Positions 7,455-41,727 of a DNA stretch of 64,000 bases are shown one piece after another. Position 1 is the stretch's first letter; each line of letters opens with the position of its first letter. The notes beneath the pieces were generated by a model. It saw only the letters and a program-made list of their open reading frames with translations. It made no database searches and was not told the DNA's origin. Position numbers and translations under genes: made by a program. Origin of the DNA: Planctomycetota bacterium (GTDB lineage Bacteria; Planctomycetota; UBA1135); assembly GCA_030748415.1 (NCBI GenBank), contig JASMMA010000014.1, positions 1 through 64,000 of the forward strand. The letters are read 5' to 3'.

Positions 7455-7465
7455 TTTTGTGACCT

Positions 7466-8077
7466 CTATAACTGGATGCCGCTAAACAGCATGAAGCCCA
7501 TGGCCATCAGGCCGGTAACCATGAATGTAATCCCCAACCCCCTGAGAGCAGGCGGAACATTGGAATACTTCATCTTTTCGCGAGCGGCGGCGAGGGCCAC
7601 GATGGCCATCCACCAACCTAGTCCGGAGCCGAGTCCGTAGACCGTGCTTTCGGCGAGGTCGTATTCCCGCTGCACCATGAACAAGGAAGCACCAAGAATG
7701 GCACAGTTCACAGCAATCAGCGGTAGGAAAACGCCCAATGCAGAGTAGAGCTTGGGGGCAAACTTATCGACCGTCATTTCCACAATCTGAACCATGGCCG
7801 CAATCGTGGCAATGTAAGCAATGAAACCCAAGAATGAGAGATCGACCTCTGCGAGTTCCGGGCTCACCCAGCCAAGCGCACCTTCTTTCAGGAGGTAGGT
7901 GTAAATCAGATTGTTCAAAGGAACGGTAACAATCAAAACGAAAGTGACCGCAAGCCCTAATCCATTGGCGGTGTCCACTTTCTTGGAGACGGCCAAGAAA
8001 GAACACATTCCAAGGAAGAAGGCAAGGGCCATGTTCTCGACAAACATGGACTTGAGGAAAATGTTAAAGAGTTCCAT
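7466..8077 (-). CDS. nqrE: Na+-NQR subunit E
   Basis: This 203-residue integral membrane subunit has six predicted helices and the family start [19 protein letters not shown]. NqrD and NqrE are inverted paralogues that together hold the membrane-embedded iron centre; the conserved Cys is seen in [11 protein letters not shown], with its counterpart near GMCSF in the first helix. The start is supported by a strong ribosome-binding site, GAGGAGGAG, whose bases are the last Glu codons of nqrD. The intergenic gap is only four bases, so translation is probably coupled. Confidence 0.96.
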
Positions 8078-8081
8078 CTTC

Positions 8082-8705
8082 TTACTCCTCCTCGTTTAGT
8101 TCGGGGCTCACCGTGCGTTGAACCCAAATGATGAATCCAATCAAAAAGAAGGCACCTGGCGCAAGAACCATGAGTCCGTTTGGTTGGTACCAACCACCGT
8201 TATTGACTGTTTTCAAAACTTCAATTCCAAACAAAGTTCCTGAGCCTAACAGCTCACGGAAAAACCCGACCGCAATCAAAATGGCAGAGTAACCAAGAGA
8301 GTTTCCAAAACCATCAATTGCGGAAGGAATCACGGGGTTCGCCATTGCAAAGGCTTCGGCACGTCCCATCACAATGCAGTTTGTAATGATGAGACCAACA
8401 TAAACAGACAACTGCTTTGAGATGTCATAAACGAAGGCCCGCATAACTTGATCTGCAACAATAACCAAAGAGGCAATGATGGCGAGTTGAACAATAATCC
8501 GCACACTGCCGGGTATTTTGTTTCGAATCGCTGAAATCGCCATGTTGGAACCAACTAGAACAAAAGTAAGGGCCGCCGACATCACGATGGATGTTTCCAG
8601 CTTTGTGGTTACCGCAAGGGCAGAACAAATTCCCAGAACTTGAAGAGTGATGGGGTTGTTAATGTGGAGCGGATCCACCAGGATTTTTTTAGATTTGCGA
8701 TCCAT
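8082..8705 (-). CDS. nqrD: Na+-NQR subunit D
   Basis: NqrD is a 207-residue membrane subunit with six helices, paralogous to NqrE. Family segments include [22 protein letters not shown] and [14 protein letters not shown], each carrying one of the cysteines that ligate the shared iron site with NqrE. The ATG at 8705 overlaps the nqrC stop in a TAATG arrangement. A longer in-frame extension to 8762 exists but lies within nqrC and lacks family similarity, so it was rejected. Confidence 0.96.
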
Positions 8706-9463
8706 TATTGGGCCCCCTTCTGTGCTGTGATGAAGGGGCCGTAGCCATCTTCTCCAAACCAAAGGGCAATCATGTGTCCAACAGCGCGACTGGTAATGGT
8801 GGCGCCAGAAAGTCCATCCACCTCGTGGGTGGAATCTTTGACTTGGCCTTTCTTCACCACAGTAAGAAGTGGCGTGTCACCTTGAGGGTCAATGAGTTTC
8901 CCATTCCAGAGCGCTTTCCACTTTGGATTGTCCACTTCGCCACCAAGCCCCGGGGTTTCGCCGTGAGCGTAGTAGGTGATTCCTTTTACGGTGTTCAGGT
9001 CAGGTTCAATGGAGATGTATCCATAAAGAGTGGACCAGAGTCCGTTCCCCCAAATGGGAAGAATCCAGCACTCTTTTCCCGCAGCTGTGACTTGGTAAAC
9101 CTCAAGAGTGTTCGGGAGGCTTGAAACCCGAGCGAGATTGGAGAGACCCACCTCAGCTTGGTCGGGATCTTTGGCCGCCTTCACGACATCGTAGGTTCCA
9201 AAATCAATTTCCCCTTGAATAGCGCCAGATTTGCGATTCACTTGGAATGTTTTGATTTTCCCGAATAGTTGGGTCACCTCTTCTCTTGAAACAGATGAGT
9301 TTTCTGAAAGGCCGGCGACCACCAAAATGTTCCGCTGCTTGTCGAGTCGTTGGTTTTCGATTTGCCGGTCTTTCAGGCCAACGGCAAAACTAGAAACAAC
9401 CAGCGAACAGACGAGGCAAACGAGAAGGGCAAAGCCAGCGGTGTACTTGTTACTGAACTCCAC
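8705..9463 (-). CDS. nqrC: Na+-NQR subunit C, covalent flavoprotein
   Basis: NqrC is a 252-residue periplasmic FMN-carrying subunit anchored by an N-terminal helix ([20 protein letters not shown]). The flavinylation motif is [10 protein letters not shown], with Thr222 the expected FMN-phosphate acceptor modified by ApbE. The C-terminal FMN-binding domain also shows [15 protein letters not shown] and [10 protein letters not shown]. The start codon is GTG, preceded by GGGAGG six bases upstream; both lie inside the end of nqrB, giving a 14-base overlap. Confidence 0.96.
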
Positions 9464-10613
9464 AACGAACCTCCCGGCGTTTGATGTTAGCTTTGACTAC
9501 GTAGTAATCAATGACTGGGGCGAAAATGTTCATGAACAAAATGGCGAGCATCATGCCTTCGGGATAGGCGGGGTTGAGCACCCGCACGAGCACACAAAGA
9601 AGGCCAATGAAGATACCGTAAATCCATTTGCCGCGATTGGTTTGAGCGGCGGACACGGGGTCGGTGGCCATGAAAACAGCACCGAAAGCAAAACCACCCA
9701 CCACAAGATGCCAGTGCCAAGGAATGGCCATGTAGTGTTCGGGGGAGGGGGCGAAGGCGTTGAGTAGGAGACTCATTCCGACTAGACCCAAAAGAGAGCC
9801 GGCCATGATGCGCCAGGAGCCAATCTTGGAGAGAATCAAGACCGCGGCACCTATGAGGCAAGCAAGGGTGCTGACCTCTCCTAGTGAGCCTGGAATCCGG
9901 CCAATGAAGGCGTCCATCCAGTCCAAGTTCGCAAGGGCAGCTGCGCCATCGTTGTAGAACTCCGCAAGCGGGGTGGCGCCGGAAAAGCCATCCACCCATT
10001 GGTCGTTGGCTGCGACCCAAACTTCATCACCGGAAATTTGACCCGGATAAGCAAAGAAAAGGAAGGCGCGTCCGGTGAGAGCGGGATTCAGAATGTTCAT
10101 TCCGGTTCCCCCAAAAATTTCCTTTCCGATGAGGGTTCCAAAACCAATTCCAAGCGCAACTTGCCACAGCGGAATGTTGGGTGGCACGATGAGAGGGAAG
10201 AGTAGAGAGGTGACCAAAAAGCCTTCATTGATTTCGTGCTTCCGAACCACTGCGAAAATAGTTTCAATCATGCCACCAGCTGCCATCGTCACGATGTAAA
10301 TGGGCAGGAAGATGAGCAATCCTTGAAGTGTGGCCGCTAAACACTCAACAGAGTCGGGTGAGGCACCAGCAGCAACTTGAGCCTGAAGGCCTGCGTTGTA
10401 GAAAGACCACAGGGTTGCAGGTATGAGCGCAACAACCACCGTCATCATGGCTCGTTTCAGATCGAGACCATCGCGGACATGAGGACCAGTATGGGTCGCT
10501 TTTGCAGGGGTGTAGAGGAAGGACTCACCAGCTTCAAAAAGTGGGTGGTATTTTTCGAACTTGCCACCCTTTTCAAAAAAAGGAGCCAGCTTGTCAAACA
10601 TGGAGCGCAACAT
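9450..10613 (-). CDS. nqrB: Na+-NQR subunit B, covalent flavoprotein
   Basis: NqrB is the main membrane subunit (387 residues, about ten helices) and carries the Na+ pathway, covalent FMN and bound riboflavin. The flavinylation motif DGFSGATPLAEF places the FMN on Thr214. The N-terminal stretch HPLFEAGESFLYTP and the Gly-rich FGGTGMNILNPALTGRAFLFFAYP are family hallmarks. It starts one base after the nqrA stop and overlaps nqrC. Confidence 0.97.
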   Translation of the reverse strand: MLRSMFDKLAPFFEKGGKFEKYHPLFEAGESFLYTPAKATHTGPHVRDGLDLKRAMMTVVVALIPATLWSFYNAGLQAQVAAGASPDSVECLAATLQGLLIFLPIYIVTMAAGGMIETIFAVVRKHEINEGFLVTSLLFPLIVPPNIPLWQVALGIGFGTLIGKEIFGGTGMNILNPALTGRAFLFFAYPGQISGDEVWVAANDQWVDGFSGATPLAEFYNDGAAALANLDWMDAFIGRIPGSLGEVSTLACLIGAAVLILSKIGSWRIMAGSLLGLVGMSLLLNAFAPSPEHYMAIPWHWHLVVGGFAFGAVFMATDPVSAAQTNRGKWIYGIFIGLLCVLVRVLNPAYPEGMMLAILFMNIFAPVIDYYVVKANIKRREVRCGVQ

Positions 10614-10614
10614 C

Positions 10615-11952
10615 TCAGCCCTCCCTTTCGATTTGGGTCAACATGTCTCGCAACAACGATGTAACTTCAGTTTTGGATTGGTCCAAATACTCGCAAAGAG
10701 CTAGATCTTCTTCGGCAACTTCCAAAACACCTAACTTTTCGGACATTTCTAAATCGCCGGAGGCGAGGGCCTTAATGAGTTGAGTCGGCATGATGTCCAT
10801 GGGCATGACTTCTTCCCATGAACCAATCGGAACAATCGCACGGTGGCTCCCGTTCATGTTGGTGTCGTACTTGTGCTTTTTTCGGAAGAGTTTGCCAAGA
10901 GCCGTATGAGTGAAAGTGTGGCGAGAGCCGATGGGGTTTGCCCACCCAACAAATTCCTTTTCGGGGGCATCGCTTAGCACGCACATTTGATTCGCGCGGG
11001 AACCCAGGAATCCAGTGGGGGAATCTGGGTCAGCTAAATCGCCGGAGAGAGCCGAGCCTGACAAAACACGCACCTTTTCAGTGATGTTATGAGCCTGAAT
11101 AAGCTTAATCGTGCAGGTGCCACGGCGAACGCGAGCAAGTGCGGGCTGGTTCATTGCCGGCCCAACAACAGCCACGACTCGGGTGGTCGGAAGTTGGCCG
11201 GTTTGAACTAGGTGGCCGATTTCAGCGACTTCCTGGTAGCCAATGTTCCAAACGCACTTGTTTTGACCGACAGGGTCTAGGGCATTGATGTGCACACCAG
11301 CATTTCCAGCAGGATGGGGGCCGGTGAATTCATGTTGCTCAACTCCATCGACCAGCATGGCGGACCAATCTTCTCCTTTGCCAGTGCAAAGGAAAGTTTT
11401 TGGTGCCAATTTTGTAAGAACACCTAGGCCAGTTTTGAATGCATCTTCGCGTCCAGCTAGAACCGCCAAAGGTGGGGCAGCTAATGGATGGGTGTCTGCT
11501 GCCGTAACAAAAAGTGAAGCGGGGTCAGCAGAACTCTCAGCAACTTTGTCAAAGGGCCGTTGCCGCAACAAAGTCCAAAGCCCAGAGCGTTGGAGATTCT
11601 TTGCAATGGAATCGCGATCGTTCCAGGATAGGGTTCCCCAATCTTCTTGGGCGTCGCCATCGAGATCTACGACAACGGAAAGAACCATTCGGCGGAAGCC
11701 ACGATTGACTGCGGAAACGGTTCCAGCGCCGGGTGAAGTGAAAAGGACATCGGGGTCGCGTTTGTCGCAGAAAAGAGGCGTGCCAACTTTGACAGCGTCG
11801 CCTTCTTGGACGAGCATTTTGACTTTGATGCCGTGGGCTTCCTGGGGGAGGGCGGCAACTTGGGGTACCGACGGCGCATCTCGAATCTCGGTCGATTCAA
11901 GGCCACCGTGCAGTGGGATGTTGAAACCCTTGCGGATGGTATGGACACTCAT
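10615..11952 (-). CDS. nqrA: Na+-NQR subunit A
   Basis: NqrA is the peripheral cytoplasmic subunit implicated in quinone binding. The predicted 445-residue product starts MSVHTIRKGFNIPLHGG, the usual N-terminus of the family. Other family segments are VQEGDAVKVGTPLFCDKRD, AGTVSAVNRGFRRM, AGNAGVHINALDPVGQNKCVWNIGYQ, and the C-terminal MPTQLIKALASGDLEMSEKLG. An in-frame extension up to 12009 would add 19 unrelated residues. It is the first gene of the operon, and no clear Shine-Dalgarno sequence precedes this ATG. Confidence 0.95.
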   Translation of the reverse strand: MSVHTIRKGFNIPLHGGLESTEIRDAPSVPQVAALPQEAHGIKVKMLVQEGDAVKVGTPLFCDKRDPDVLFTSPGAGTVSAVNRGFRRMVLSVVVDLDGDAQEDWGTLSWNDRDSIAKNLQRSGLWTLLRQRPFDKVAESSADPASLFVTAADTHPLAAPPLAVLAGREDAFKTGLGVLTKLAPKTFLCTGKGEDWSAMLVDGVEQHEFTGPHPAGNAGVHINALDPVGQNKCVWNIGYQEVAEIGHLVQTGQLPTTRVVAVVGPAMNQPALARVRRGTCTIKLIQAHNITEKVRVLSGSALSGDLADPDSPTGFLGSRANQMCVLSDAPEKEFVGWANPIGSRHTFTHTALGKLFRKKHKYDTNMNGSHRAIVPIGSWEEVMPMDIMPTQLIKALASGDLEMSEKLGVLEVAEEDLALCEYLDQSKTEVTSLLRDMLTQIEREG

Positions 11953-12068
11953 CAGAGGCTGGGGGTAAGTGGATTTGCACCTTTCCCCACTGAGGGTGGG
12001 GGGAGGCACTTTGGGGCTGGATTGTAGTCACGCCCGCCCCCTTTGATAACCTGTGAAACGCAAAACCC
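11953..12068. promoter_or_regulatory. Divergent intergenic region between nqrA and the HtrA gene
   Basis: These 116 bases separate two divergent start codons and must hold the promoter for the nqr operon and one for the protease gene. The sequence is G-rich on the left (GGGTGGGGGGAGGCAC). No clear -35/-10 pair or operator palindrome could be identified by eye, so individual elements are not called. Confidence 0.45.
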
Positions 12069-20197: not shown

Positions 20198-21025
20198 TTA
20201 AAAAGTAATCCCGAGCGCAGCGTAAGGACCGGTGAGGGCGAGTTCCATGTCCATGGTACCCATTCCAAAGTCGCCTTCTTTGACTTCAACATTCAGGTCA
20301 ATGTCGCGGTATCCGACCAGCAATTCCGCATTGTCTGTTAGTGCATAGTTGAGGTTTAGGTCCAGGTCCCAATAGTCCACGACAACATCTTCGACATCAA
20401 TGGAGATTCCTGAGTATTCACCCCCAAAGCGGAGGCCGGTAATGGGGATGTCAGCATCGAGACGAATGCCCCCCATGGGAACGAGGAGGTCTTCGTTTGA
20501 AATCGCGGAAACGGTGTCGCCTTGATTGATCGTGCCAACGCTTTCGGCGGCTTCAATTGAGAAGGTGTTAAAACCGAGTTGGTCAACTCCAGCAAGAAGG
20601 CCCACTCGAACAACTCCAGAGTTAAAGATATCCAAGCCAAGCATGAGCTTTTGAACCTGGAGGTCCATGGTCGTGTTAACGGCTAGGTCATCGTTCCAAG
20701 GTTGGCCCATAAATTCTCCGGTCACGGCCATATTTCCACTGTGGATTGAGTCAACTCCGAACTGAGAGTACACGATTTCTAGAGGAGCAAAGCCAATTCT
20801 GGCACCACCATAGAAGACATTCTCAGAGCCGGACGGGATATCCAGGCTTCCTTCCGTAATGTCTCCATTTTGATCTAAAGTCAAGTTGTCAAGAGCTCCA
20901 CTCGAATCCGATTGGAGCATCCCGCCAAAGGCGTTGATATGGGCGCCGCTCCAGGCGGCATCGCCGGGCAGGGCGCATGCAACTGTAAAAAGAAAGGGAA
21001 GCAGGAGTAGGTGAATGTTTTTCAT
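20198..21025 (-). CDS. Outer-membrane beta-barrel-like protein
   Basis: The 275-residue product begins with a signal peptide (HLLLLPFLFTVACALPGDAA). The mature part alternates in beta-strand pattern (NYALTDNAELLVGYRDIDLNV, MELALTGPYAALGITF) and ends in Phe, the usual barrel-terminating residue. No specific family was recognised. The start at 21025 fits the signal peptide; a longer frame to 21046 overlaps the upstream glycosyltransferase. It is the last gene of the minus-strand arm of the surface cluster, 17 bases after the glycosyltransferase stop. Confidence 0.65.
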   Translation of the reverse strand: MKNIHLLLLPFLFTVACALPGDAAWSGAHINAFGGMLQSDSSGALDNLTLDQNGDITEGSLDIPSGSENVFYGGARIGFAPLEIVYSQFGVDSIHSGNMAVTGEFMGQPWNDDLAVNTTMDLQVQKLMLGLDIFNSGVVRVGLLAGVDQLGFNTFSIEAAESVGTINQGDTVSAISNEDLLVPMGGIRLDADIPITGLRFGGEYSGISIDVEDVVVDYWDLDLNLNYALTDNAELLVGYRDIDLNVEVKEGDFGMGTMDMELALTGPYAALGITF

Positions 21026-21042
21026 GTTTGATTTGAGGAGGG

Positions 21043-21948
21043 TCATTCCAGGAACCCGTTCAGGAAATCATAAAGCCGCTCCCCTGAATCTTCACGGAGG
21101 ATTTCGGAGCTTCGGCGAAGAGAAGCGGCGCAAATTTCGCGGCGAAAATGAGGATCAATTAATTGTCGGTCCAGTATGCGAGCAAATGAGTGCGAATCCT
21201 TGGAATCGCCAAGAGGCCATGCCCCTTGAAGAGTTTCAGGATATGCGCCTGAGTCCATGGCAACCCCACACGCCCCACATTGGAGGGCCTCGATGAGTTG
21301 AGATGGGTTATGTGCACCTTGTTTGGGGGCAATAACGGCCTCCGCCGCCGAATGAAGGGCATGGATTTGATTGGGGCTCAATTTGGGAAGGCATAAGAGC
21401 CCCGGAATTCTGTTCGCTTGTGAGACTTCTTGGGGAAGGACGAACTGCATGCCAGCGATGGGGGCTTGGCTGGATTGGAATGCCTGAATACTCACAGGGA
21501 TGGATGGGTCATGTTCATTTCCGGGTAGGTGAAAAAAGAAAGGGCGATTGATTCCAAGTTCGCATAGGATTTTTGCATACTCGTTTTGCTCAAGAGGTCG
21601 AACTTCGTTCCGTGGAGGGGAATGAACTAAAATCGAATCTTCCGGAAAACTCGGAAAATGAAAGTTGAACCGCTCTAGAGAATATTTAGAGGGCAGAACG
21701 ACACCAGAGGCCCGTTGCACGGATCGGATAATGCGTTCGGAATGGTGTCGCGATTCTCCATGATCAAGGGATTCGAAAGAATCCAAGCAGAGGATTTTTG
21801 GGGACTTGCCTAAACGAGGGAGTTTAGGTTTGAAGGAAAGTACTAGGTCGCAACCCCAACTTTGGGTTTGAAGTTGAAATCCTCCCCTTTCTAGACATTC
21901 CCGAAATTGGCTTGCAGGTTCCGATCTTCCGGAAAGGGCGATTTTCAT
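21043..21948 (-). CDS. Glycosyltransferase, GT-B fold (GT4-like)
   Basis: The 301-residue protein has features of a short GT4-type enzyme. In the C-terminal half there is an acceptor/donor region with AVIAPKQGAHNPSQLIEALQCGACGVAMDSGAYPE, the equivalent of the E-x7-E loop that binds the nucleotide sugar, though the first Glu is replaced by Gln/His in PKQGAHNPSQLIEAL. The N-terminal domain (KIALSGRSEPASQFRECLE) is abbreviated. Its ATG overlaps the tandem kinase stop by four bases, so the two are translationally coupled. A role in building the same surface glycan as its neighbours is inferred from position. Sugar and acceptor are unknown. Confidence 0.65.
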   Translation of the reverse strand: MKIALSGRSEPASQFRECLERGGFQLQTQSWGCDLVLSFKPKLPRLGKSPKILCLDSFESLDHGESRHHSERIIRSVQRASGVVLPSKYSLERFNFHFPSFPEDSILVHSPPRNEVRPLEQNEYAKILCELGINRPFFFHLPGNEHDPSIPVSIQAFQSSQAPIAGMQFVLPQEVSQANRIPGLLCLPKLSPNQIHALHSAAEAVIAPKQGAHNPSQLIEALQCGACGVAMDSGAYPETLQGAWPLGDSKDSHSFARILDRQLIDPHFRREICAASLRRSSEILREDSGERLYDFLNGFLE

Positions 21949-23336
21949 TTTGTGAGAAAAGGAATCATGGCTTGCCCTCTTTTTTGAAGACGAGCCGCAG
22001 TAGCGAACTCAAGGTGAGGAAGAATGGATATGCCGTACTGTTTTAACCCGAAGAGGAGATCGCGAGCAGGGACAGTTTTGTAAAGACCCACATGAAGGGC
22101 GGCCAAGTCCTTCGCGGCCTCGGTGGGGCGTAGCTGTCTGCGAAGAAAACGATTTCGGTCGTGATCGATCAGTACGAATCGGTTTTCAGTTGAAGCATCT
22201 TGGTTAACAAGAATGTTGCTGGGTTTGAGGTCCCGGTAGTACACACCGCTTTGATGAAGACGAAGAGTGAAGGCGCCTAGCTCTTGGAGGAGCTTTCGCC
22301 GCTCTTTTTGTGAAAGTTCAGCAAGTGAATCTTGAAGCCTAGGGAGATGAGATAAATCTTCCAATAAGAGGAAGGAGCCCACCGATGAATCAGACCAACA
22401 AGCAAGTGGTTTGGCCGCTTGGATATTGCGGCGTTGAAGCGACTCAGCGGCAAATAAGGATTTGAGCGCTTTTGAAAAACCAAATGCATTTCGGAGGTCC
22501 AAGCGCTTTGTGGGTCGGTAGTGCTTGTAAACAGCTGAAGAGCTATCCGGGAGAACGGCCAGGTGTACTGAAGATGGAGATTCCGCTTTGTCCTTTAGTA
22601 AGGTCCTTGTTTGAATGGTCTGGGTGTCAAACGAATCGATTCTCCAAATAGCTGGATGGGTCCCATGGGCTTCTCTTTTTGCTCGGCGATCCAAGTTGCA
22701 CTGATGCTCGCGGAATCTAACCCAGCCGGCCTTTTCCATTTCAGGAGGCGCAATGTTTCCAGAGTAGGCGTTGGAAAGAGTGAGGAGGAGTTCGGTTGGA
22801 AGGGGATTCAGCCTTGAAAGAAGGTGCCCAAAATCAAGGAGTCTCGCAGTTGATGAGGAAGATGAGCGAAGAGTTTTAAGGTCGGTTAAAAAAATGTCCT
22901 CGTTATCGTGAAGGAGATTCCAAATATGCAAATCACCATGGACTAGATTCGAAGAGTGAAGTTTTGAGACAAGAGCGCCGAGTTTCTTAAGCAGGCGGGG
23001 GTTTTGAATTAGTTTCTCTCGGTCTAAGGAGCTTGATTCGCCATAATCAGTCAGGAAAAGTAAATAGTCATCAGCATTCTGCACGACCGCCCATGCTTGA
23101 ACGCATGGGACGCCTTCTTCTTGAAGGAGCCCTGAGTTCTGAAACTCAAGAAGGGCGCCTTTGCGAGCTTTATTGCCCGAGCCGAAGTTTTTCATGAATA
23201 GAGTGTTGCCCCAAGGGCCATCGATAAAAAACCGAAAGTACTTCCGCCCTCCTGAGCCTTCCCCCAGATTTTTCGAAGAACTCAGCTTTTGGAGGTAATG
23301 TCCCTCAAATGCATTTGCGGCGCAGATAATTTTCAT
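21945..23336 (-). CDS. Tandem WaaP/Kdo-kinase-like protein (two lipopolysaccharide-kinase domains)
   Basis: The 463 residues contain two protein-kinase-like lobes in series. Domain 1 has a candidate ATP-anchoring Lys49 (LFMKNF), catalytic loop HGDLHIWNLL (133-142) and metal Asp152 (FLTDLKT). Domain 2 has Lys271 (AVYKHY), YRDLKPSNIL (367-376) and Asp391 (LIDHDRNR). This is the pattern of Kdo kinase and WaaP heptose kinases, which phosphorylate the inner core of lipopolysaccharide at the inner face of the membrane. Family members normally carry one such domain. The gene sits between an alkaline-phosphatase-superfamily enzyme (three-base gap) and a glycosyltransferase (four-base overlap). Both domains keep the key catalytic residues, so two phosphorylation sites, or one active plus one regulatory domain, are possible. 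Confidence 0.75.
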   Translation of the reverse strand: MKIICAANAFEGHYLQKLSSSKNLGEGSGGRKYFRFFIDGPWGNTLFMKNFGSGNKARKGALLEFQNSGLLQEEGVPCVQAWAVVQNADDYLLFLTDYGESSSLDREKLIQNPRLLKKLGALVSKLHSSNLVHGDLHIWNLLHDNEDIFLTDLKTLRSSSSSTARLLDFGHLLSRLNPLPTELLLTLSNAYSGNIAPPEMEKAGWVRFREHQCNLDRRAKREAHGTHPAIWRIDSFDTQTIQTRTLLKDKAESPSSVHLAVLPDSSSAVYKHYRPTKRLDLRNAFGFSKALKSLFAAESLQRRNIQAAKPLACWSDSSVGSFLLLEDLSHLPRLQDSLAELSQKERRKLLQELGAFTLRLHQSGVYYRDLKPSNILVNQDASTENRFVLIDHDRNRFLRRQLRPTEAAKDLAALHVGLYKTVPARDLLFGLKQYGISILPHLEFATAARLQKRGQAMIPFLTK

Positions 23337-23339
23337 GCC

Positions 23340-25169
23340 CTATTCAACCAGAAGATCACCGTAGCCGAGTTGCTCCAGGAGTTCTTTTCTGTTTTCTGTC
23401 AGGTCAACTTTGCCAACAGTAGCTTTTAACTCCTCCAGAATGAATTGAATTGCAACATCAAACCCCTTGGGTCCTGGTAGAGAGGATGGCCAATTTTTCT
23501 CTTTAGGATCATTCTTAAGGTTTACGAACCCACTTCGTGAGGGAATAGGGGTTCCAGATTTGTCCAGCTCAGTTATCCACTTCCAGTCGCCTTGGCGTAT
23601 GGCGATTCGGTTTGTGTCTCGTGCGACATGGATTCTTCCAACGCTTGGATTGTCCAACAAATTGACTCCATCAAAGTCGAGGCTCGAAATATCAAAGCCG
23701 CATCGAGCAAGGAGGGTGGGGGCAATATCTTCAAGAAAGGCCTCGTCCAACTTTTTATGAGGAATACCGGGTCCATGTAGAACAAAGGGAACTTGGAGCA
23801 CTTCTTCAAATACATGTTTCCTGTGGCCAGTAAGGTTGTGCTCCAAAAAGAACTCACCATGATCACCGGTGATAGCGATAATCGTGGGCCTTTTTTTTGC
23901 TTGGATAGCCTCAAGCACTTTCCCTAATTGTGCGTCGAGGAAGTCCACTTCTTCCAGGTAAGCGGGAAAATCAATTCCCAACACTGTGCCGGAATTAGCA
24001 TTCCTTGGCCGAGTCTGCGCAAACTCGTCTGGAGCGTTGTAGGGGTCGTGCGGGTCCATGTAGTGAAGGAAAAAGAAATACGGGCTCTTGAAAGTAGAAA
24101 GGGCTTCTAAAGAATTCAGTGCCTTGTCAGTTGTGCGATATCCAAGACCAAGGTCCTGTTCTTCAGCTGGGAAGCGAGTGCTGCCATCGCTATAGAAAGC
24201 AACCTTGGCGATAGCTTCAAGGTCCTTGGTACCAGTTATCCACCCAATTAATGTTAGTTTTTCAAGGGCACGAATGATGCGGATATGGTGGCTTTCGAGG
24301 ACGACCTCATCTGAATAATGGTCAAAGCCCATACTGGGTCCAGTAGGTCGAGCTAACAAACCATTGCTCACGACGGCCGAAGTGTTCCAGCCCCCTTTTT
24401 GAAAGTACTCAGGCAGGTAAGTGACAGAGGTTGGAAAGGCATATGAGTTGTCGAGTAATCCTAGCTTTCCAGTTCCCAATCCCGTGAGCATTCCCGCGTG
24501 TCCGGGGATGGTTTGATTGGAGGGCGAAATTGCGGCTTCAGCCCAGAGCCCCTTCTCAATGAGGGAGATAAAGTTGGGGGTATGGGCGCTATTTGGCCCG
24601 AGCATGGCGTCTGCACGAATGGTGTCGATTGAAATCAGAACAACATCCGGAGTCTGTTCGGAAACTTGCTTGTCCGATTCCGAGAACCCAACCTGAGCAG
24701 TCTCTGTGTTTATGCTCGGAACCCATCCCCAAAATGCAGCGCTCCAAAGGAAAAGTGAAGCTAGGAGTATGCCACCTGAAACCATTGGCTTGATGGAGAG
24801 TTTTCGGTTCAGGATTGGAGCGAATAGAAAAAGTGGGATGGAAGCCCAAATGCCGGAACTTGGATTTCCGGACCAGTTAAAAAATTCCTGAGCAGTAAAG
24901 GAGATGAGAGGGGCGCAACCCAAAGCGGTGCCCGCCCAAAAACCAGTTGATGGAGCTTGTGGTTGCTTTCTTCGAAGCAGGCAATAAACCGAGATTAGAA
25001 GAGCTAATACGAGCCCTGTAAGAATATTCCCGCCTACACAAACTGAAATGCTATCTCTTAGTCCAAAATCCACATTGACCGCCCTTGAGCCCATGCCGCC
25101 AAGGGATTGGACAACACCCATGAGCGCAAGGCCGGAGAGGAAAAAAAAGATGAACTTAAGGATGTTCAT
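23340..25169 (-). CDS. Membrane-anchored alkaline-phosphatase-superfamily enzyme, sulfatase-like, Thr at nucleophile position
   Basis: The 609-residue product has about five N-terminal membrane helices (to residue 150) and then a sulfatase-fold domain. Metal-binding segments are visible: ISIDTIRAD and ITGDHGEFFLEH. At the position where sulfatases have C/S-x-P-x-R for formylglycine, this protein reads QTIPGHAGMLTG, so the nucleophile would be Thr220. Thr in T-x-P-x-H is the pattern of nucleotide pyrophosphatase/phosphodiesterases and some phosphotransferases of the superfamily, so action on a phosphate ester or transfer of a phospho-group is more likely than sulfate hydrolysis. The ATG at 25169 follows the hydrophobic start; a longer frame lies in the divergent promoter region. 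It is the first gene of the minus arm of the surface cluster. Confidence 0.75.
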   Translation of the reverse strand: MNILKFIFFFLSGLALMGVVQSLGGMGSRAVNVDFGLRDSISVCVGGNILTGLVLALLISVYCLLRRKQPQAPSTGFWAGTALGCAPLISFTAQEFFNWSGNPSSGIWASIPLFLFAPILNRKLSIKPMVSGGILLASLFLWSAAFWGWVPSINTETAQVGFSESDKQVSEQTPDVVLISIDTIRADAMLGPNSAHTPNFISLIEKGLWAEAAISPSNQTIPGHAGMLTGLGTGKLGLLDNSYAFPTSVTYLPEYFQKGGWNTSAVVSNGLLARPTGPSMGFDHYSDEVVLESHHIRIIRALEKLTLIGWITGTKDLEAIAKVAFYSDGSTRFPAEEQDLGLGYRTTDKALNSLEALSTFKSPYFFFLHYMDPHDPYNAPDEFAQTRPRNANSGTVLGIDFPAYLEEVDFLDAQLGKVLEAIQAKKRPTIIAITGDHGEFFLEHNLTGHRKHVFEEVLQVPFVLHGPGIPHKKLDEAFLEDIAPTLLARCGFDISSLDFDGVNLLDNPSVGRIHVARDTNRIAIRQGDWKWITELDKSGTPIPSRSGFVNLKNDPKEKNWPSSLPGPKGFDVAIQFILEELKATVGKVDLTENRKELLEQLGYGDLLVE

Positions 25170-25263
25170 TTTATGGAGTCTAGCTTCGCCCCAAGGGGTT
25201 TCCCAAGTAGAATGAAGCTCGCCCGATTCCTTGCTGGAGCCCTGGAGTAGTAGGCGAGCCCTC
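25170..25263. promoter_or_regulatory. Divergent promoter region of the surface cluster
   Basis: The 94 bases between the sulfatase-like gene (minus) and the GT2 gene (plus) must drive both arms of the cluster. No clear promoter boxes or operator palindrome were seen by eye. The shared position suggests common regulation of the two arms. Confidence 0.4.
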
Positions 25264-26088
25264 ATGAAATTTTCCGTTGTGATTCCGACCTACAATTCTC
25301 CAAGGGAGTTGGAGTTTATTTTGTGTTCTTTGGGTCGCCAAACAAGGCTCCCCGATGAGGTTCTCATTGCAGACGACGGTTCTGGAGAAGAAACCAAAGC
25401 CCTTATCCAAAGCTGGGTCGAAAAACTACCATTTCCAATTCGCCATTGTTGGCATGCTGACCGTGGCTTCCGAAAATCTCGAATCGTAAATGAGGCCGTT
25501 CGTCAATCGACGGGCGACTTTCTTTTGTTTATTGATGGCGATACATTTCCCCATCGCCGCTGGATTGAGGACTATGTCCGTGCAGCTCCCAACAACACAG
25601 TGCTTTGCGGTCGTCGAGTGAAGTTGGGGCCAAAAATATCAGAAACCATTTCCTTCCAGAAGATTGAGGCTGGCGCTTTTGACTCTCTCAATTCCGCACT
25701 CTTGTTTTCTTCCATAATGGGAGATACGAAGCGATTGTCTTTAGGGATTCGTTTGCCTTCTTTTCTTTGTAGGGTTTTGCATCCAAGAAGTAGAAAGTTG
25801 ATGGGGGTAAATTTCGGACTTTCCCGCGAGGCATTTTTTGCAGTAAATGGTTATGACGAAGAATGGAAGGTATATGGTTGCGAAGATCGAGGCCTTGAAC
25901 TTTGCTTGAGGAATTCCGGATACACGCTGACCCCTTTATTAAACCGAGCGGTTGTTTTTCATGTTTACCACCCAGAGCGCCCACGCTCTGCTGAAGCTCA
26001 CCGCTTAATCCGAGCGCAAGAGGGGTCCTGCAAAAAGCGTTGCGTGGTTGGGATTGAACGAACCACAGAATTCGCCACCGATGAATAA
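25264..26088 (+). CDS. Family 2 glycosyltransferase (GT-A fold)
   Basis: The 274-residue enzyme begins FSVVIPTYNSPRELEF, the GT2 nucleotide-binding start, followed by IADDGSGEET, DRGFRKSRIVNEAV and the metal-binding FIDGDTFPH. The C-terminal part (GVNFGLSREAFFAVNGYDEEW, then GCEDRGLELCLRNSGY) resembles the galactosyltransferase/chondroitin-synthase type of acceptor loop with an ED pair as catalytic base. It should transfer a sugar from a nucleotide donor, probably to a surface glycan or LPS core, given its neighbours. The start at 25264 is chosen because it places the VVIPTYN motif at residues 4-10. Its stop overlaps the next ATG (TAATG). Confidence 0.88.
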   Translation: MKFSVVIPTYNSPRELEFILCSLGRQTRLPDEVLIADDGSGEETKALIQSWVEKLPFPIRHCWHADRGFRKSRIVNEAVRQSTGDFLLFIDGDTFPHRRWIEDYVRAAPNNTVLCGRRVKLGPKISETISFQKIEAGAFDSLNSALLFSSIMGDTKRLSLGIRLPSFLCRVLHPRSRKLMGVNFGLSREAFFAVNGYDEEWKVYGCEDRGLELCLRNSGYTLTPLLNRAVVFHVYHPERPRSAEAHRLIRAQEGSCKKRCVVGIERTTEFATDE

Positions 26089-27998
26089 TGAGTCGCGAGT
26101 GCGTTAGGATGAAACGAATGTTACGAGGATTGCTTGCAGGAGCTGGTTGGTTTGCCCTGGTCGATGGCGGCTTTGGGCTTGCATTCCCCCAAGTTTTAAT
26201 GAGAGAGGCTCTAGTTCTCGCATTGATGGGCGCCCTCCTGGCTGCAACCGCCTTCCGTTTAATTTTTGGGTCCCTTTTGCCCCGCTTGGTTAAATCCGAG
26301 GCGGAAACTTTCTGGGTAGGCGTGGGCCTTGCGTTACCACCTTTCCTCTCAAACTGGATTTCCCCCTTTTATCTGAGTCTCTTGGCCATTCCTGCGATGG
26401 TCATCTTCGCGCCACGGCTCAGGGCAATTCTCCCCTTTCAAAGGGTTTCCTTGGTAGCTGCATCAGCGCCCTACATCATTGGGTTGCTCCTTTTCCTAGC
26501 TCCCTCCTCATTGGAAAAGCCAGCTGATATTCAGACCCATCTTTCTTTTCCAGAGAATCATGAGCCCTTGTTAGGCCCCAACGTACTTCTCGTTTCGGTG
26601 GACACTCTTCGGGCTGACCGGGTCCTTGAACTTGCAGACCGCCTTCCTCATTTGACGGAACTTCGAAATAGGGGGTCTTGGGCTTCTTTTGGGTTGGCAA
26701 CTTCGAACCAAACATTGCCATCTCATGTTTCAATGTTGACGGGCCTTCCTGTTTTGCAGCATGGAGTTAGGGACAACAGAGATAAGCTTCCTCTTCAAAA
26801 CATACCTTTCTTAGCAGAACGATTTCAAGAGGCCGGCTGGAACACGGCTGGAATTGTGATGAATGGTTTTTTGAGAGGGGACTCAGGATTTTCTCAAGGC
26901 TTTGATCTTTACGAAGACACGCTCGCTCGGCGTCCTGGCATTCATGGTGCTGCCCGCCATGCAACTCAAGCCCACTCCTGGCTTGGTTGGATCAGCCCAT
27001 TTGCACTGTCTCGAATTTGGTTTCCGTATTTACTGCCGCCACCCACCGAAGACTCCCAGGCAATGGCAGATGGCAACAATGCTCTTGGTCATGCAAAGGC
27101 AATCTTGAATGAGCTAAATGGAAGAAATCAGCCATGGTTTATGTTCTTTCATCTTTTAGATCCACACTTCCCTTATGCACCACCTTCTCCTTGGTCAGGC
27201 TCTTTTTTCGAAATTGAGTCGATTCCTGAATCCTTGCGAGAAAACACTGCTGGGTCCTGGGACCTTATGAGGTTTCTTGAGAAAGATATCCGCTTGGTGG
27301 AAGTTGAAGGGCAAACTCCTGAGCAAGCGTCGAGGCACCGTGATGCTCGGGTCGCCGCTCGTGCCCTCATGGACTTATACGACGAGGAGATTCTATATGT
27401 TGATTCTCTCATGGGAGAACTCATAAAGGCTGCATCGCTGGATGTGCGTCCCACTGTTATTCTTTTCACATCCGACCATGGGGAACATTTTGGAGAGCAT
27501 GACCTAATTTTGCACAGCCGTGGAATGTATGAGGAGCTGCTTCGGGTCCCCTTTATTGTTGTTGGCCACGGAATGAAGGGTGGGGAAATGTCGATTACAC
27601 CACATCTGGAAGATGTTGCCCCCACGCTTCTCGGCCTTGCCGGACTTTCAACCGATGGCTTTCCTGGGCGAGACCTTAGTCAAACCTTGTCGCTAAAGGA
27701 GGACAGACAGCGAGCCCACATCGAAAGGGCAGGAATGGAGTTGACCATTCGACATCAAGAATGGAAGCTCCATGTTCGCCTTCGACTCCGTGGGAATGAA
27801 GCCCTAGAGCTATACAACTTGAATGAGGATCCCGGTGAGGCTCGCAACTTACTCCAATTCAATGAAGAGAAAGTCCAAGAATTGATGAAGATGGTTGAAA
27901 CCGCTTTATCTCATTCATCGGGCTCGTCGGAACGCAACTCGAACCCTGAACAACAAGCTCTATTGGAGCACTTGGGATATGTCGAAGAGGGGAGCTGA
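26088..27998 (+). CDS. Membrane-anchored alkaline-phosphatase-superfamily enzyme, sulfatase-like, Thr at nucleophile position
   Basis: The 636-residue paralogue of the enzyme at 23340 has an N-terminal block of about four membrane helices (to 140) and a catalytic domain with LLVSVDTLRAD (metal Asp172) and FTSDHGEHFGEHD. The nucleophile segment reads NQTLPSHVSMLTG, giving Thr209 in a T-x-P-x-H context instead of a formylglycine Cys/Ser. The Arg that follows in true sulfatases (CxPSR) is His here. It is translationally coupled to the GT2 gene upstream and overlaps the third paralogue by 20 bases, so the three plus-strand genes form one operon. A phosphoester hydrolase or phosphotransferase acting on the outside of the inner membrane is the preferred reading. 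Confidence 0.75.
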   Translation: MSRECVRMKRMLRGLLAGAGWFALVDGGFGLAFPQVLMREALVLALMGALLAATAFRLIFGSLLPRLVKSEAETFWVGVGLALPPFLSNWISPFYLSLLAIPAMVIFAPRLRAILPFQRVSLVAASAPYIIGLLLFLAPSSLEKPADIQTHLSFPENHEPLLGPNVLLVSVDTLRADRVLELADRLPHLTELRNRGSWASFGLATSNQTLPSHVSMLTGLPVLQHGVRDNRDKLPLQNIPFLAERFQEAGWNTAGIVMNGFLRGDSGFSQGFDLYEDTLARRPGIHGAARHATQAHSWLGWISPFALSRIWFPYLLPPPTEDSQAMADGNNALGHAKAILNELNGRNQPWFMFFHLLDPHFPYAPPSPWSGSFFEIESIPESLRENTAGSWDLMRFLEKDIRLVEVEGQTPEQASRHRDARVAARALMDLYDEEILYVDSLMGELIKAASLDVRPTVILFTSDHGEHFGEHDLILHSRGMYEELLRVPFIVVGHGMKGGEMSITPHLEDVAPTLLGLAGLSTDGFPGRDLSQTLSLKEDRQRAHIERAGMELTIRHQEWKLHVRLRLRGNEALELYNLNEDPGEARNLLQFNEEKVQELMKMVETALSHSSGSSERNSNPEQQALLEHLGYVEEGS

Positions 27999-29613
27999 GA
28001 TTACTCGCCGTTCAGCTTTTTTAACAGGAGCAGTTTTTGGCATTCTTTTGGCGTTGGCTGAAGGGATTGGAATTTTAAGTTGGAAATCGCTCTCTCATGG
28101 CGCGATTTTTTACGGAGGCGTCTTTGGTTGTGTTTGCATTTTGCCTCGAAAATTCCTCCCTCGAATTCCGCCAGTGCTCTTAAAGTCAGTTGCCACACTT
28201 CTCTTGTTTTTGGTGGCTATGGGAGTGTGGGGGAATGGAGCTTGGCAAAGGGAAGCCAATCCAGAGCACCCCGATATTCTCCTCATAACTTTAGATACAA
28301 CTCGTGCAGATCGGTGGTACGAAGTTTCCAAATCTTTCGGCGGCGATGGTTTTGATGAGGGGAGTTTTCAATTCCCGATTACTTACACACCCACGGGGCT
28401 CACCGCTCCTGCTCACGCCAGCTTATTCACGGGCCTACACCCACACCAACATGGTGTTTTGAATAACGGTGGCAACCTCTCCGGAGGCGTCAGTTTGCCG
28501 AAATCTCTTCGCGGGGCTGGTTTCTACACGATGGCGGCGCCATCAGTCATCCATCTTGATCCCGCATTTGGCTTTTCGGCCGGCTTCCAAGAATTCGCAC
28601 ACGTGGAAGAGGGTGTGAGGGGCAAGTTTCGAGACCTGCGCCATTTCCGTTTGATTCGCCCTCTCTTTGCGATGTTTGGAGCTGGTCAAGTTACGAGGCC
28701 TGGTGCAGAAACTTTAAGTAAAGCGCTCCAACTTTGGGAGTCCGCACCTCCGAATCGCCCACGGTTTTTGTGGACACACCTTTTTGAGCCCCATTGGCCC
28801 TACGAACCCCCCTCCAAGGAGTTTTTGCAAGCCTCTGATATGCAAGCTTGGGAAACGGGGCCCTCTCCGGGGTACCCTGCTTCCGAAGTGCGGACATGGC
28901 AAGTTGCTTACGATGCCGAACTTCTTTATTCGCGGAAAATTCTCGCTGGCTTCCTAAAGAGAATCCAAGAAAAACGAACGGCGACCGCCCGCCCCCTATG
29001 GGTTTTCTTTACCGCCGACCACGGCGAAGCTTTAGGTGAGCATGGCGCGACGGATCATGGAGACCTTCTATACGAAGAACAGATTCGTGTTCCTTTCTGG
29101 TTGAAAATACCAGGAGTTCAAGCCGGATCAAATCAAACACCAATTTCTCATGTTGATTTTTTTCCGAGTTTGATAGACCTTCTCAACCTTGAACCTCAAG
29201 AGAATCTTCCGGGCCGCTCTTGGGCGCCGGCGTTGTTCGGGCATCCCATTCCGGAGGTGCCTGTTTACGCTGAATCACGGCACGCATCCTTTGATAACGC
29301 AATGTGTCGTTATGCAAATGTGAAGCTTGTCCGGAACTTAGTCGTTTCGTCCGAGCAAATGAAGCGGAAACCGCGTCCATCTCAAGGTGTCCCCGAATCA
29401 GTTTCTTGGCTTAAGCCCTGGGAAGCCTACGACCTGATGAACGATCCCCTTGAACTTTCGCGCATGGAAGGGAAGCCTGCTCCGCCTGCCGACCAGGTTG
29501 CGAGTTATTTGAATTTCTTTCTTCGGGAAAGAGGGGAAGTGCCGTCTGAATATGGCAGGAATCGCATCGCCTCAGACATCGTAGATGCCTTGCGAGAGTT
29601 GGGTTACTTCTAA
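27979..29613 (+). CDS. Membrane-anchored alkaline-phosphatase-superfamily enzyme, sulfatase-like, Thr at nucleophile position
   Basis: The 544-residue third member of the cluster has a shorter membrane region (about three helices to residue 85). The metal site shows LITLDTTRAD and FTADHGEALGEHGATDHGD. The nucleophile segment reads PTGLTAPAHASLFTG, so Thr142 stands in for the formylglycine residue, again with His two residues past the Pro. A frame starting at 27895 exists, but the ATG at 27979, inside the end of the preceding gene, is preferred because it directly precedes a basic, then hydrophobic N-terminus. The gene is followed 28 bases later by cca. Confidence 0.75.
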   Translation: MSKRGAEITRRSAFLTGAVFGILLALAEGIGILSWKSLSHGAIFYGGVFGCVCILPRKFLPRIPPVLLKSVATLLLFLVAMGVWGNGAWQREANPEHPDILLITLDTTRADRWYEVSKSFGGDGFDEGSFQFPITYTPTGLTAPAHASLFTGLHPHQHGVLNNGGNLSGGVSLPKSLRGAGFYTMAAPSVIHLDPAFGFSAGFQEFAHVEEGVRGKFRDLRHFRLIRPLFAMFGAGQVTRPGAETLSKALQLWESAPPNRPRFLWTHLFEPHWPYEPPSKEFLQASDMQAWETGPSPGYPASEVRTWQVAYDAELLYSRKILAGFLKRIQEKRTATARPLWVFFTADHGEALGEHGATDHGDLLYEEQIRVPFWLKIPGVQAGSNQTPISHVDFFPSLIDLLNLEPQENLPGRSWAPALFGHPIPEVPVYAESRHASFDNAMCRYANVKLVRNLVVSSEQMKRKPRPSQGVPESVSWLKPWEAYDLMNDPLELSRMEGKPAPPADQVASYLNFFLRERGEVPSEYGRNRIASDIVDALRELGYF

Positions 29614-29640: not shown

Positions 29641-31032
29641 ATGGGAAATACCTTCCCCGCATTTGCAGAGCCCAAGTTAGGGGATTTGGTCATTAAGATT
29701 GCCAAAGCCTGTCAACAGGCGGGTGGGCGAGCCTTTTTGGTTGGCGGGGCTGTCCGGGACTCATTGTTAGGGCTTGCACCGCAAGATGCCGACCTTGAGG
29801 TTTATGGCCTCCAGCCTGATGTTCTCGAAAAAGTCGTTGCCCCATTTGGCAAGATACATTTTGTGGGCCAGCAGTTTGCTGTAATTCATCTAGCGACCGG
29901 GTTCGGGGACCTGGAGATTTCCCTTCCCCGTCGAGAGTCCAAAACTGGTCCCGGACATAAAGGTTTTTCTATTCAAGCTGACCCGGAATTGAACCCTGAA
30001 GAGGCTTCTGCCCGTCGGGATTTTACGGTTAATTCAATGCTGCAAGATCCCATCACAAACGAGATTGTTGACCCATTCTCGGGTCAGCGTGATTTGAAGG
30101 CTGGCCTTTTGCGACACGTTTCGCCTGCATTTTCAGAGGACCCTCTTCGAGTTCTTCGCGCTGCCCGATTTGTTGCCCGCTTTGCATGGAAAGTTGCACC
30201 TGAAACAGTTTCCCTTTGTTGGGCGCAGGACTTGTCTGAACTTCCCGTGGAACGATTCGAAAAGGAATGGCGCGGTCTTCTTTTGCGCGGTTCTTTTCCT
30301 GGCTTAGGTTTGCAATGTCTTGCGGAGCTTGGCGCACTCCGCTGGTTTCCCGAATTGGAAGCTCTGCGAGGAATCCCCCAAGACCCTGTATGGCATCCGG
30401 AGGGCGATGTGTTTCGCCATACTTGTCTCTGTTTGAATGCAGGGGCTCACATTCGCGATGAAATGGAAGACCCTTGGGTGGAGATGTTAGGAATCCTGTG
30501 TCACGATTTAGGGAAAGCTGAAACTACCAACTTTGAACGCGGCCGTTGGCGATCCCCAAACCATGATGTTGTGGGCGGTGAGTTGAGCCATGCACTTTTT
30601 AAACGATTGAGCCATCAAGAAGGCATTGCCCCGAAAGTTGCCGCGTTGACTCGAGATCATTTGCGCCCAACGCAGTATTTCTTCGCTCCCAAAGTGGGGG
30701 ATGGTGCCATAAGGCGACTTGCATTGCGGGTGGACATTTCCGCTCTGATTCGAGTTGCATGGTCAGATGCTGCTGGAAGAGATTGTTCAAACATGCCCCA
30801 GTGGAAGGACTGGGAACCCGGTCGTTGGCTTTTGAATCGCGCCGCCGATTTGGGTGTAAAAGATTCTGCCCCGCAACCGTTTTTGCTTGGGCGTGACTTA
30901 CTGGAGCTTGGGCTCCAACCGGGTCCAAAAATTGGAAAAATCCTCAACGAAGCCTTTGAGTTGCAACTGGATGGCAAACTTCCTGACCGAGAATCGGCAC
31001 AAGTGTGGCTTGCAAAGAAATGCGCCCGTTGA
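29641..31032 (+). CDS. cca: CCA tRNA nucleotidyltransferase / poly(A) polymerase family with HD domain
   Basis: This 463-residue class II nucleotidyltransferase builds or repairs the 3' CCA of tRNA in the cytoplasm. The head domain shows FLVGGAVRDSLLG, the metal-binding DADLEVYG and the family hallmark ARRDFTVNSM. The neck segment reads SEDPLRVLRAARFVARF. The C-terminal part contains an HD-type metal phosphohydrolase motif (HPEGDVFRHT, LCHDLGKAETT, NHDVVGG), as in bacterial enzymes with 2',3'-phosphodiesterase activity. One of the two catalytic acidic residues sits in DAD rather than the usual DFD or DWD. It cannot be told from sequence alone whether it adds CCA or acts as poly(A) polymerase; CCA addition is likelier. 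Confidence 0.88.
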   Translation: MGNTFPAFAEPKLGDLVIKIAKACQQAGGRAFLVGGAVRDSLLGLAPQDADLEVYGLQPDVLEKVVAPFGKIHFVGQQFAVIHLATGFGDLEISLPRRESKTGPGHKGFSIQADPELNPEEASARRDFTVNSMLQDPITNEIVDPFSGQRDLKAGLLRHVSPAFSEDPLRVLRAARFVARFAWKVAPETVSLCWAQDLSELPVERFEKEWRGLLLRGSFPGLGLQCLAELGALRWFPELEALRGIPQDPVWHPEGDVFRHTCLCLNAGAHIRDEMEDPWVEMLGILCHDLGKAETTNFERGRWRSPNHDVVGGELSHALFKRLSHQEGIAPKVAALTRDHLRPTQYFFAPKVGDGAIRRLALRVDISALIRVAWSDAAGRDCSNMPQWKDWEPGRWLLNRAADLGVKDSAPQPFLLGRDLLELGLQPGPKIGKILNEAFELQLDGKLPDRESAQVWLAKKCAR

Positions 31033-40218: not shown

Positions 40219-41727
40219 ATGTTCCTTACATCACTTTTATTCGCGGTACTCCCGCCTCAGTTTGCCGGTTTTGAAGAGCAAGACGCCCTTTCATATGAGA
40301 TTGATTTGTCTTTTGATTATGAGGAAACATTCGTAGAAGCAGATGTAAATATGCGCTTCCAGCTTCAATCTTCCAGCGACCGAATTTGGCTCCACTCCAC
40401 TGAAGGAAAAAAGTGGTCCATGGAATTTTTTAATGCGAAGAATCAAAAATTGGAGACTCTCCGCAATGGTCAACTTTTAGAGGTTCTCCTCGGCGGTGAA
40501 TTACCCAAGGGTTCTATCGTTGAGTTGCGAGTTCATTTATCAGGCACCCCTCCTGATGGCCTATATTTTGAAGAGGGGCGACATGGGGAGCCCGTTCTCT
40601 TTACCGACCACTTTTCTTCCCGAGCGCGTGGCTGGCTTCCATGTGAAGACCATCCCTCTGACCGGGCTTCATTTTCCGTTCATGTCAATGTGCCAAAAGG
40701 TTGGGAGTTCATTTCCAGTGGATTGGATGAAGATGGCGATGGGGTTTGGAAAACAAAAACAGACCTTCCGACCTATATGCTTGCTTTTGCGGCTGCGCCT
40801 TGGGCGCGGATTGAGGAAAAAGGGGACCCCCGCCTGATTCCCCACTTTATTTACAAAAAAGATAAACCACGGGCGCGCCTTGGGCTAAAGCATCACGCCG
40901 AATGGATGCAATCTATGGAATCTACCTTTGGTCCTTACTCATGGGAGAAGTATTGCGTAGTTCAAGTTCCAACTCGATGGGGTGGGATGGAGAACGCTGG
41001 GAATACTTGGATCATGGAACGGCTATTTGATGGTCGTGACCGTGGAGTTGGCACGCTTGCCCATGAATTTGTTCACATGTGGTTTGGGAATGCCGCCGGT
41101 TATGGCGAATGGTACGAGGCCTGGTTGAGCGAAGGCTTTGCAACTTATTTTGGGCCTTGGCTTCACGCTCAAGTGGGCGGTCCGCCTCTGCGCCGTTCTA
41201 TGGAGGGTTCGCGCCGCCGCTGGCGAAGCTCAAGTTGTTCCGATATTCGGCCTATTCGATGGAAGGAATTTGAGGCACCGGACGACTTTTTTAGTTCTTC
41301 TGCTCCAAACACTTACCAGAAGGCCGCATGGGTCCTCCATATGCTCCGAGGGGAGTTAGGAGATGGTGCCTTCTTTGAAGGCATTTCAAACTACTACGCA
41401 TCGATTTCTCCAGGGATTGCCACAACTCCACAGTTTATTGAAGCAATGGAGGCGTCAAGCGGGAGAAAATTGGGCTGGTTCTTCGAGCAATGGCTCGACC
41501 GTCCGGGTTGTCCCCAACTTTCAATTCGGTGGGAAGGAGAATCTGTTTTTGTTGAACAGCTCCAAGAGGATTTGTTTCGCTTTCGGCTCCCTCTTCAATG
41601 GACAAATGGCGAAGGCAAACGCCAGAAACAAGTATTCGAGGTTCGCCAACGGACGCACAAGTTCTCTCTTGGCAGTAAAGTGTCCGCTCCGGCTGTGGAT
41701 CCCGATGTAGAACTTTTATATCGTTAG
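40219..41727 (+). CDS. Secreted M1-family metallopeptidase (aminopeptidase N-like)
   Basis: The 502-residue protein starts with a short signal peptide, then the M1 N-terminal beta-sandwich domain (residues 25-190). The exopeptidase motif is GGMENAG (about 254; GAMEN in most members) and the zinc site is HEFVH (about 282) with the third ligand Glu 18 residues later in WLSEGFATYF. The thermolysin-like domain ends near 420, and the C-terminal helical domain of large aminopeptidases is missing, as in short bacterial M1 enzymes. It should remove N-terminal residues from peptides outside the cytoplasm. It converges with the next gene, overlapping it by four bases. Confidence 0.92.
   Translation: MFLTSLLFAVLPPQFAGFEEQDALSYEIDLSFDYEETFVEADVNMRFQLQSSSDRIWLHSTEGKKWSMEFFNAKNQKLETLRNGQLLEVLLGGELPKGSIVELRVHLSGTPPDGLYFEEGRHGEPVLFTDHFSSRARGWLPCEDHPSDRASFSVHVNVPKGWEFISSGLDEDGDGVWKTKTDLPTYMLAFAAAPWARIEEKGDPRLIPHFIYKKDKPRARLGLKHHAEWMQSMESTFGPYSWEKYCVVQVPTRWGGMENAGNTWIMERLFDGRDRGVGTLAHEFVHMWFGNAAGYGEWYEAWLSEGFATYFGPWLHAQVGGPPLRRSMEGSRRRWRSSSCSDIRPIRWKEFEAPDDFFSSSAPNTYQKAAWVLHMLRGELGDGAFFEGISNYYASISPGIATTPQFIEAMEASSGRKLGWFFEQWLDRPGCPQLSIRWEGESVFVEQLQEDLFRFRLPLQWTNGEGKRQKQVFEVRQRTHKFSLGSKVSAPAVDPDVELLYR

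Follow-up and report, generated by a model that had tools for sequence, protein, structure and literature searches.

The window analysed here, a stretch of DNA of 64,000 nucleotides, comes from contig C5 in the draft genome (2.46 Mb, 91% complete) of a member of the Planctomycetota, and it carries seven adjacent genes arranged in two divergent arms (Table 1). All seven are present in the sequence on the strands and at the coordinates given by the first-pass annotation, which was also exact as to the 94 bases separating the arms and as to the junctions, spaced from 3 bases between the genes for the kinase and sulfatase-like enzyme A to a 20-base overlap between those for B and C. The 94-base region is likely the promoter region for both arms; no sigma-70-type promoter match was found inside it. 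The GC content of the cassette (0.493) is lower than that of the neighbouring and other genes of the window (0.519; p = 0.007). Elsewhere in the window, positions 5155-12009 hold a run of genes for the Na+-translocating NADH:quinone reductase (Nqr), together with apbE.

Table 1. Genes and features of the locus, with positions in the window
Feature	Position	Strand	Basis or remark
Beta-barrel-like outer-membrane protein	20198-21046	minus	TIGR04219 sub-threshold (30.2 vs 105 bits)
GT4-like protein	21043-21948	minus	PF00534 26.7 bits vs cut-off 26.4, borderline
Tandem Kdo/WaaP-type small kinase	21945-23336	minus	PF06293 72.5 bits
Sulfatase-like enzyme A	23340-25169	minus	start ATG at 25169, within a longer ORF
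Divergent intergenic region	25170-25263		94 bases, from the sequence
GT2 glycosyltransferase	25264-26088	plus	PF00535 81.7 bits, PF02709 25.7 bits
Sulfatase-like membrane enzyme B	26088-27998	plus	PF00884 109 bits
Sulfatase-like membrane enzyme C	27979-29613	plus	PF00884 88 bits; overlaps B by 20 bases
pcnB/CCA-adding enzyme	29641-31032	plus	PF01743; right border of the slot, backbone gene

Comparison of the region across 25 further genomes of the same family (26 including the window's own) revealed a backbone of the order SOD, barrel, slot, pcnB, SDR and RecG, in which pcnB is kept in 25 of the 26 genomes and the content of the slot between barrel and pcnB varies. In five relatives (G095, G096, G105, G110 and G117) the slot is empty and the barrel gene directly abuts pcnB. 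Since barrel homologs adjoin pcnB at cassette-free sites (L082, L083, L085, L086 and L091), the function of the barrel is not tied to the cassette; its initial inclusion in the cluster was misleading, and we assign it to an invariant SOD-barrel-pcnB backbone. In 19 barrel homologs a lipobox-like Cys follows a hydrophobic leader and is itself followed by an [x]PGD.AW-like motif, a combination that is unusual in an outer-membrane barrel (window 20198-21046) and suggests, at the sequence level, a lipidated N-terminus.

The occupied slots come in several versions. A single-domain kinase is the sole content in G097 and G100, and in five genomes (G098, G099, G101, G109 and G114) it has an O-antigen ligase (WaaL/Wzy_C) and a WaaE-like GT2 beside it; in G113 the WaaE-like GT2 and the Wzy_C ligase are located at a contig end. 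The slots of G103, G104, G115 and G116 hold a two-domain kinase, a GT4 (seen within an unsplit reading frame in G104), a WaaE-like GT2 and several sulfatase-like genes; those of G115 and G116 are visible in full, and Wzy_C is absent from their slot contigs, while in G103 and G104 contig breaks divide the slot. In G108 a two-domain kinase and a WaaE-like GT2 lie on a contig that ends too early for the rest of the cassette. The GT2 proteins that we take to be WaaE-like are so labelled from a recognised motif pattern and not from a database match; they occur in 11 of the 26 genomes and are confined to the slot between barrel and pcnB. The family-specific kinase gene (>180 bits) is likewise always found at this slot (15/26 genomes). 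The window's slot is of the sulfatase type and contains no O-antigen ligase, and its GT2 is not WaaE-like.

The exact set of seven genes is not conserved, even within the genus, and so fails the criterion that the first-pass annotation set for itself, a gene order kept beyond the closest strains. In the genus's other sampled genome (G119), the flanks are 70-96% identical to those of the window and sulfatase-like enzymes B and C 69% identical, a different GT4 replaces the window's GT2 and enzyme A, and the kinase is just 45% alike, its domain count being obscured by assembly gaps (L040:9540-9865 and 10594-10921). The order of the genes for B, C and pcnB is kept in G119 (L040) and G103 (L090), and in G115 (L034) a single gene, encoding a PF01663 phosphodiesterase-type membrane protein (L034:2586-4544), is inserted between B and C. 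What is conserved is thus the slot itself, the kinase, and the order B-C-pcnB. The kinase type also tracks the rest of the cassette: tandem kinases are accompanied by sulfatase-like genes in all five resolvable genomes and single-domain kinases in none of seven, an association with an exact probability of 1/792 (about 0.001) when counted by genome and of 1/35 (about 0.03) when counted by genus (4 vs 3), genus being the deepest level of kinship allowed for. The empty and variant slot contents, together with the low GC content, are what one sees at variable surface-glycan loci, of which the outer-core waa operon of Escherichia coli is an example, and we think it rather probable that the locus is a mosaic: a variable LPS-core cassette, acting on presumed substrates, in a fixed chromosomal slot.

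The two glycosyltransferase genes of the window differ in their prospects. The GT2, with its galactosyltransferase-7C-like C-terminal part (PF02709), sits in the place of the WaaE-like GT2 and shows no significant similarity to it, and is hence not its ortholog; no WaaE-like gene was found in the window's own genome. For the GT4-like transferase of the earlier annotation, the family match holds at a borderline level and the catalytic motifs do not: compared with intact homologs of 366-400 aa, the protein has lost about 65 residues at its N-terminus, along with the lysine of RHKN and, in the EX7E motif, the first Glu. Because this catalytic Lys and Glu are lost here and kept in the intact relatives, the sequence suggests that the window's GT4 is probably not an active transferase.

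The proposal that the cassette serves the LPS core has gained strong support, which comes from the kinase (the closest solved structure to its profile is WaaP/RfaP, 6dfl), from the ligase and WaaE-like GT2 in the slots of relatives, where co-location with core transferases and an O-antigen ligase is seen directly, and from the remainder of the genome. The window's own genome encodes LpxC, KdtA (far from the locus), and three proteins of the heptosyltransferase family (GT9), so that synthesis of Kdo-lipid A is to be expected; across the family, LpxC and KdtA are each found in 24 of 26 genomes and GT9 proteins in every one. On this comparative evidence the predicted LPS-core role is well supported. 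Alternatively, the cassette could make or trim a separate surface polysaccharide or glycolipid, a sugar of which would be phosphorylated by the kinase and trimmed by sulfatase-like phosphatases or phosphodiesterases. Consistent with such a role, paralogs of the sulfatase-like enzymes lie away from the slot in a polysaccharide cluster of the same genome (L058), the sulfatase-like fold is hydrolase-like, and the matches of the GT2 and GT4 lean toward EPS families. The kinase, however, falls in the LPS-kinase Pfam family with WaaP as its closest solved homolog, the slots of relatives contain the O-antigen ligase and WaaE-like GT2, and the cassette has no recognisable polymerase, exporter, or lipid-carrier initiating transferase; we therefore consider a separate glycan unlikely. 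Alongside its several sulfatase-like enzymes, cluster L058 (G000:C55:80000-99999) encodes a Wzy_C protein, glycosyltransferases, and a flippase-like protein; with similar genes at this and other loci of the genome that have no relation to the slot, the sulfatase-like enzymes may act on other glycans.

The kinase was expected to be a tandem LPS-kinase-like protein, and its match to PF06293 (Kdo; cut-off 21.3 bits) in two separate stretches confirms this. Its AlphaFold model (pLDDT 91, pTM 0.87) has two kinase folds, and the catalytic residues (Lys, HxD...N, and metal Asp) are complete in the N-domain (K49, D135, N140 and D152) and the C-domain (K271, D369, N374 and D391) and invariant in both across an alignment of six tandem relatives. 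The two domains are homologous (profile comparison, E = 2e-17). An origin of the tandem kinase by recent independent duplication was rejected, since every N-domain falls in a single clade (support 100/99). In its PF06293 membership and in the WaaP structure nearest to its profile, the protein resembles the heptose-I kinase WaaP (RfaP) and the Kdo kinase KdkA; it differs from them in having two homologous, catalytically complete domains per chain, and it scores below the equivalog cut-offs of both models (NF011703, 38.8 vs 170 bits; NF002475, 54.1 vs 142 bits). In the literature searched, nothing relevant to a tandem WaaP/KdkA kinase was found. By fold, the Foldseek neighbours of the model are small kinases of a generic kind, PRPK/Bud32 and APH among them. 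An enzyme like Bud32/PRPK or an aminoglycoside kinase, with a substrate outside the envelope, would agree with these top matches (PRPK/KEOPS kinases and APH enzymes) and with the scores of 40-50 bits against Bud32 NCBIfam models, which are under the cut-off; it is nonetheless improbable, as Kdo is the best Pfam family by a wide margin and as the fully seen cassettes, the kinase-only ones apart, pair the kinase with glycosyltransferases, an O-antigen ligase, or sulfatase-like enzymes. A second, shorter Kdo/InaA-like kinase, a candidate further LPS kinase, is encoded elsewhere in the genome (G000:C11:16639-17280; L079 8547-9299), and weaker conserved homologs of it occur in many genomes of the family, several of them on the lpxC contig.

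All three sulfatase-like proteins match PF00884 well above its cut-off of 25 bits (A at 102 bits; for B and C see Table 1). Their nearest neighbours in sequence and fold are choline sulfatase, carrageenan-sulfatases, other S1 sulfatases, and phosphonate monoester hydrolases (PMH), and the AlphaFold model of B (pLDDT 89, pTM 0.89), which consists of five N-terminal helices followed by the catalytic domain, has only sulfatases or PMH among its best 50 Foldseek matches listed. With choline sulfatase and PMH they have in common the fold as a whole and the alignment length; the enzymes here differ in being membrane-anchored and altered at the active site: the position of the formylglycine Cys/Ser is Thr in 23 of 23 aligned sequences, His replaces the motif Arg in 21 of them, and His also stands where choline sulfatase has its catalytic Lys after the Asp-His ligands. 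The motif reads T-x-P-[SAG]-[HV] throughout (T-x-P-G-H in A, T-A-P-A-H in C), and the C/S-x-P/A-x-R maturation motif of type I sulfatases is absent from all 23 sequences.

Invariant in B and its 23 aligned relatives are D172, T209, H360, D463, H464, H476 and K560. The corresponding set in NmEptA is E240, T280, H383, D452, H453 and H465 (PMC10525099): T209, D463, H464, H360 and H476 of B equal T280, D452, H453, H383 and H465, and D172 equals E240, with the D-H...H segment matched by ungapped alignment to 5fgn and T209, D172 and H360 by position. Solved PEtN transferases outscore sulfatases as matches to the D-H...H segment. Like EptA and MCR, then, these enzymes have a Thr nucleophile, Asp-His metal ligands, and a pair of second-site His at matching spacing, and the model of B shares their five N-terminal membrane helices; unlike them, A to C have a catalytic scaffold and C-terminal part of the type-I sulfatase/PMH kind, their first ligand is Asp where EptA has Glu, and their scores are far under the EptA cut-offs (NF028537 and MCR models: B 26.3 and C 22 vs 500 bits, A unmatched). 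The level of the LtaS model is not reached either (A 17.5 and C 17.3 vs 970 bits), and model scores and fold together rule out membership of EptA or LtaS. The earlier assignment to "EptA, LtaS, OpgB types" is accordingly wrong for the scaffold, which is that of a type-I sulfatase or PMH, and apt for the catalytic residues, which are EptA-like. A Thr nucleophile, Asp-His, and two extra His as in EptA fit phospho-ester chemistry and do not fit classical sulfatases, and A, B and C are best read from their residues as putative Thr-nucleophile phospho-ester enzymes that would face the periplasm. That they are true sulfatases of environmental or self glycans in an incidental neighbourhood, as PF00884, the sulfatases heading the Foldseek matches, and the likeness of invariant K560 and H360 to sulfatase residues might imply, is very improbable given the Thr for Cys/Ser and the two His substitutions, the fact that to our knowledge no known maturase turns Thr into formylglycine, and the location of membrane-anchored enzymes in a core cassette. 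Nothing relevant on Thr-type membrane 'sulfatases' in LPS loci was found in the literature searched. Related genes lie outside the cassette: enzyme A has paralogs on contig C55 of its own genome, a fourth sulfatase-like membrane protein with a T-R-P-S-V motif is encoded at window positions 41724-43655 and also has relatives on C55, and in both genomes of the genus sulfatase-like genes lie beside that of a large multi-spanning membrane protein (L059:9704-13581 and L064:5127-9013).

We hypothesize that the LPS-core cassette would work in two compartments. In the cytoplasm, the GT2 would add a core sugar and the two-domain WaaP/KdkA-type kinase would phosphorylate one or two positions of the inner core (Kdo or heptose). 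In the periplasm, the three membrane-anchored sulfatase-scaffold enzymes, with their Thr nucleophile and EptA-like metal site, would act on core phospho-esters. Most likely they would take a phospho-substituent from a lipid donor and pass it on, hydrolysis being the less likely reaction; this preference for transfer we infer from the membrane anchor and from the setting in a core cassette. In related species the slot instead contains a WaaE-like GT2 and an O-antigen ligase next to a single-domain kinase. The substrates, the direction of the phospho-chemistry, and a loss of O-antigen at the window's core are all matters that we infer.

The nearest known counterpart is the enterobacterial waa (rfa) core operon, in which the gene sets of the outer-core types R1-R4 and K-12 have been exchanged between strains (PMC13293308). 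As in that operon, core glycosyltransferases, kinases of the WaaP/WaaY type, and WaaL are found at one fixed site and whole sets are swapped; in contrast to it, the slot described here has few glycosyltransferases and one kinase, often two-domain, the window's group has sulfatase-fold enzymes in place of WaaL, five relatives have an empty slot, and KdtA is encoded elsewhere. Unusual here are an LPS kinase of two domains, sulfatase-scaffold enzymes that apparently take the place of the O-antigen ligase, and the EptA-like catalytic residues of these enzymes. Through the contents of this slot, lineages appear to be switched between a core capped with O-antigen and one with phospho-decoration. In its most specific form, with the second state being a core modified by a two-headed LPS kinase and by new sulfatase-derived membrane phosphotransferases that have converged on the EptA site, this switch is a tentative proposal that we rate as possible, and more doubtful than the mosaic cassette itself. 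If the enzymes do have this chemistry, a large group of T-x-P-x-H proteins, at present annotated as 'sulfatase', would turn out to be envelope phospho-transferases or phospho-ester enzymes; and if our reading is true, this uncultured lineage would hold a naturally variable LPS-core slot in matched empty, kinase-only, ligase, and phospho-decoration states.
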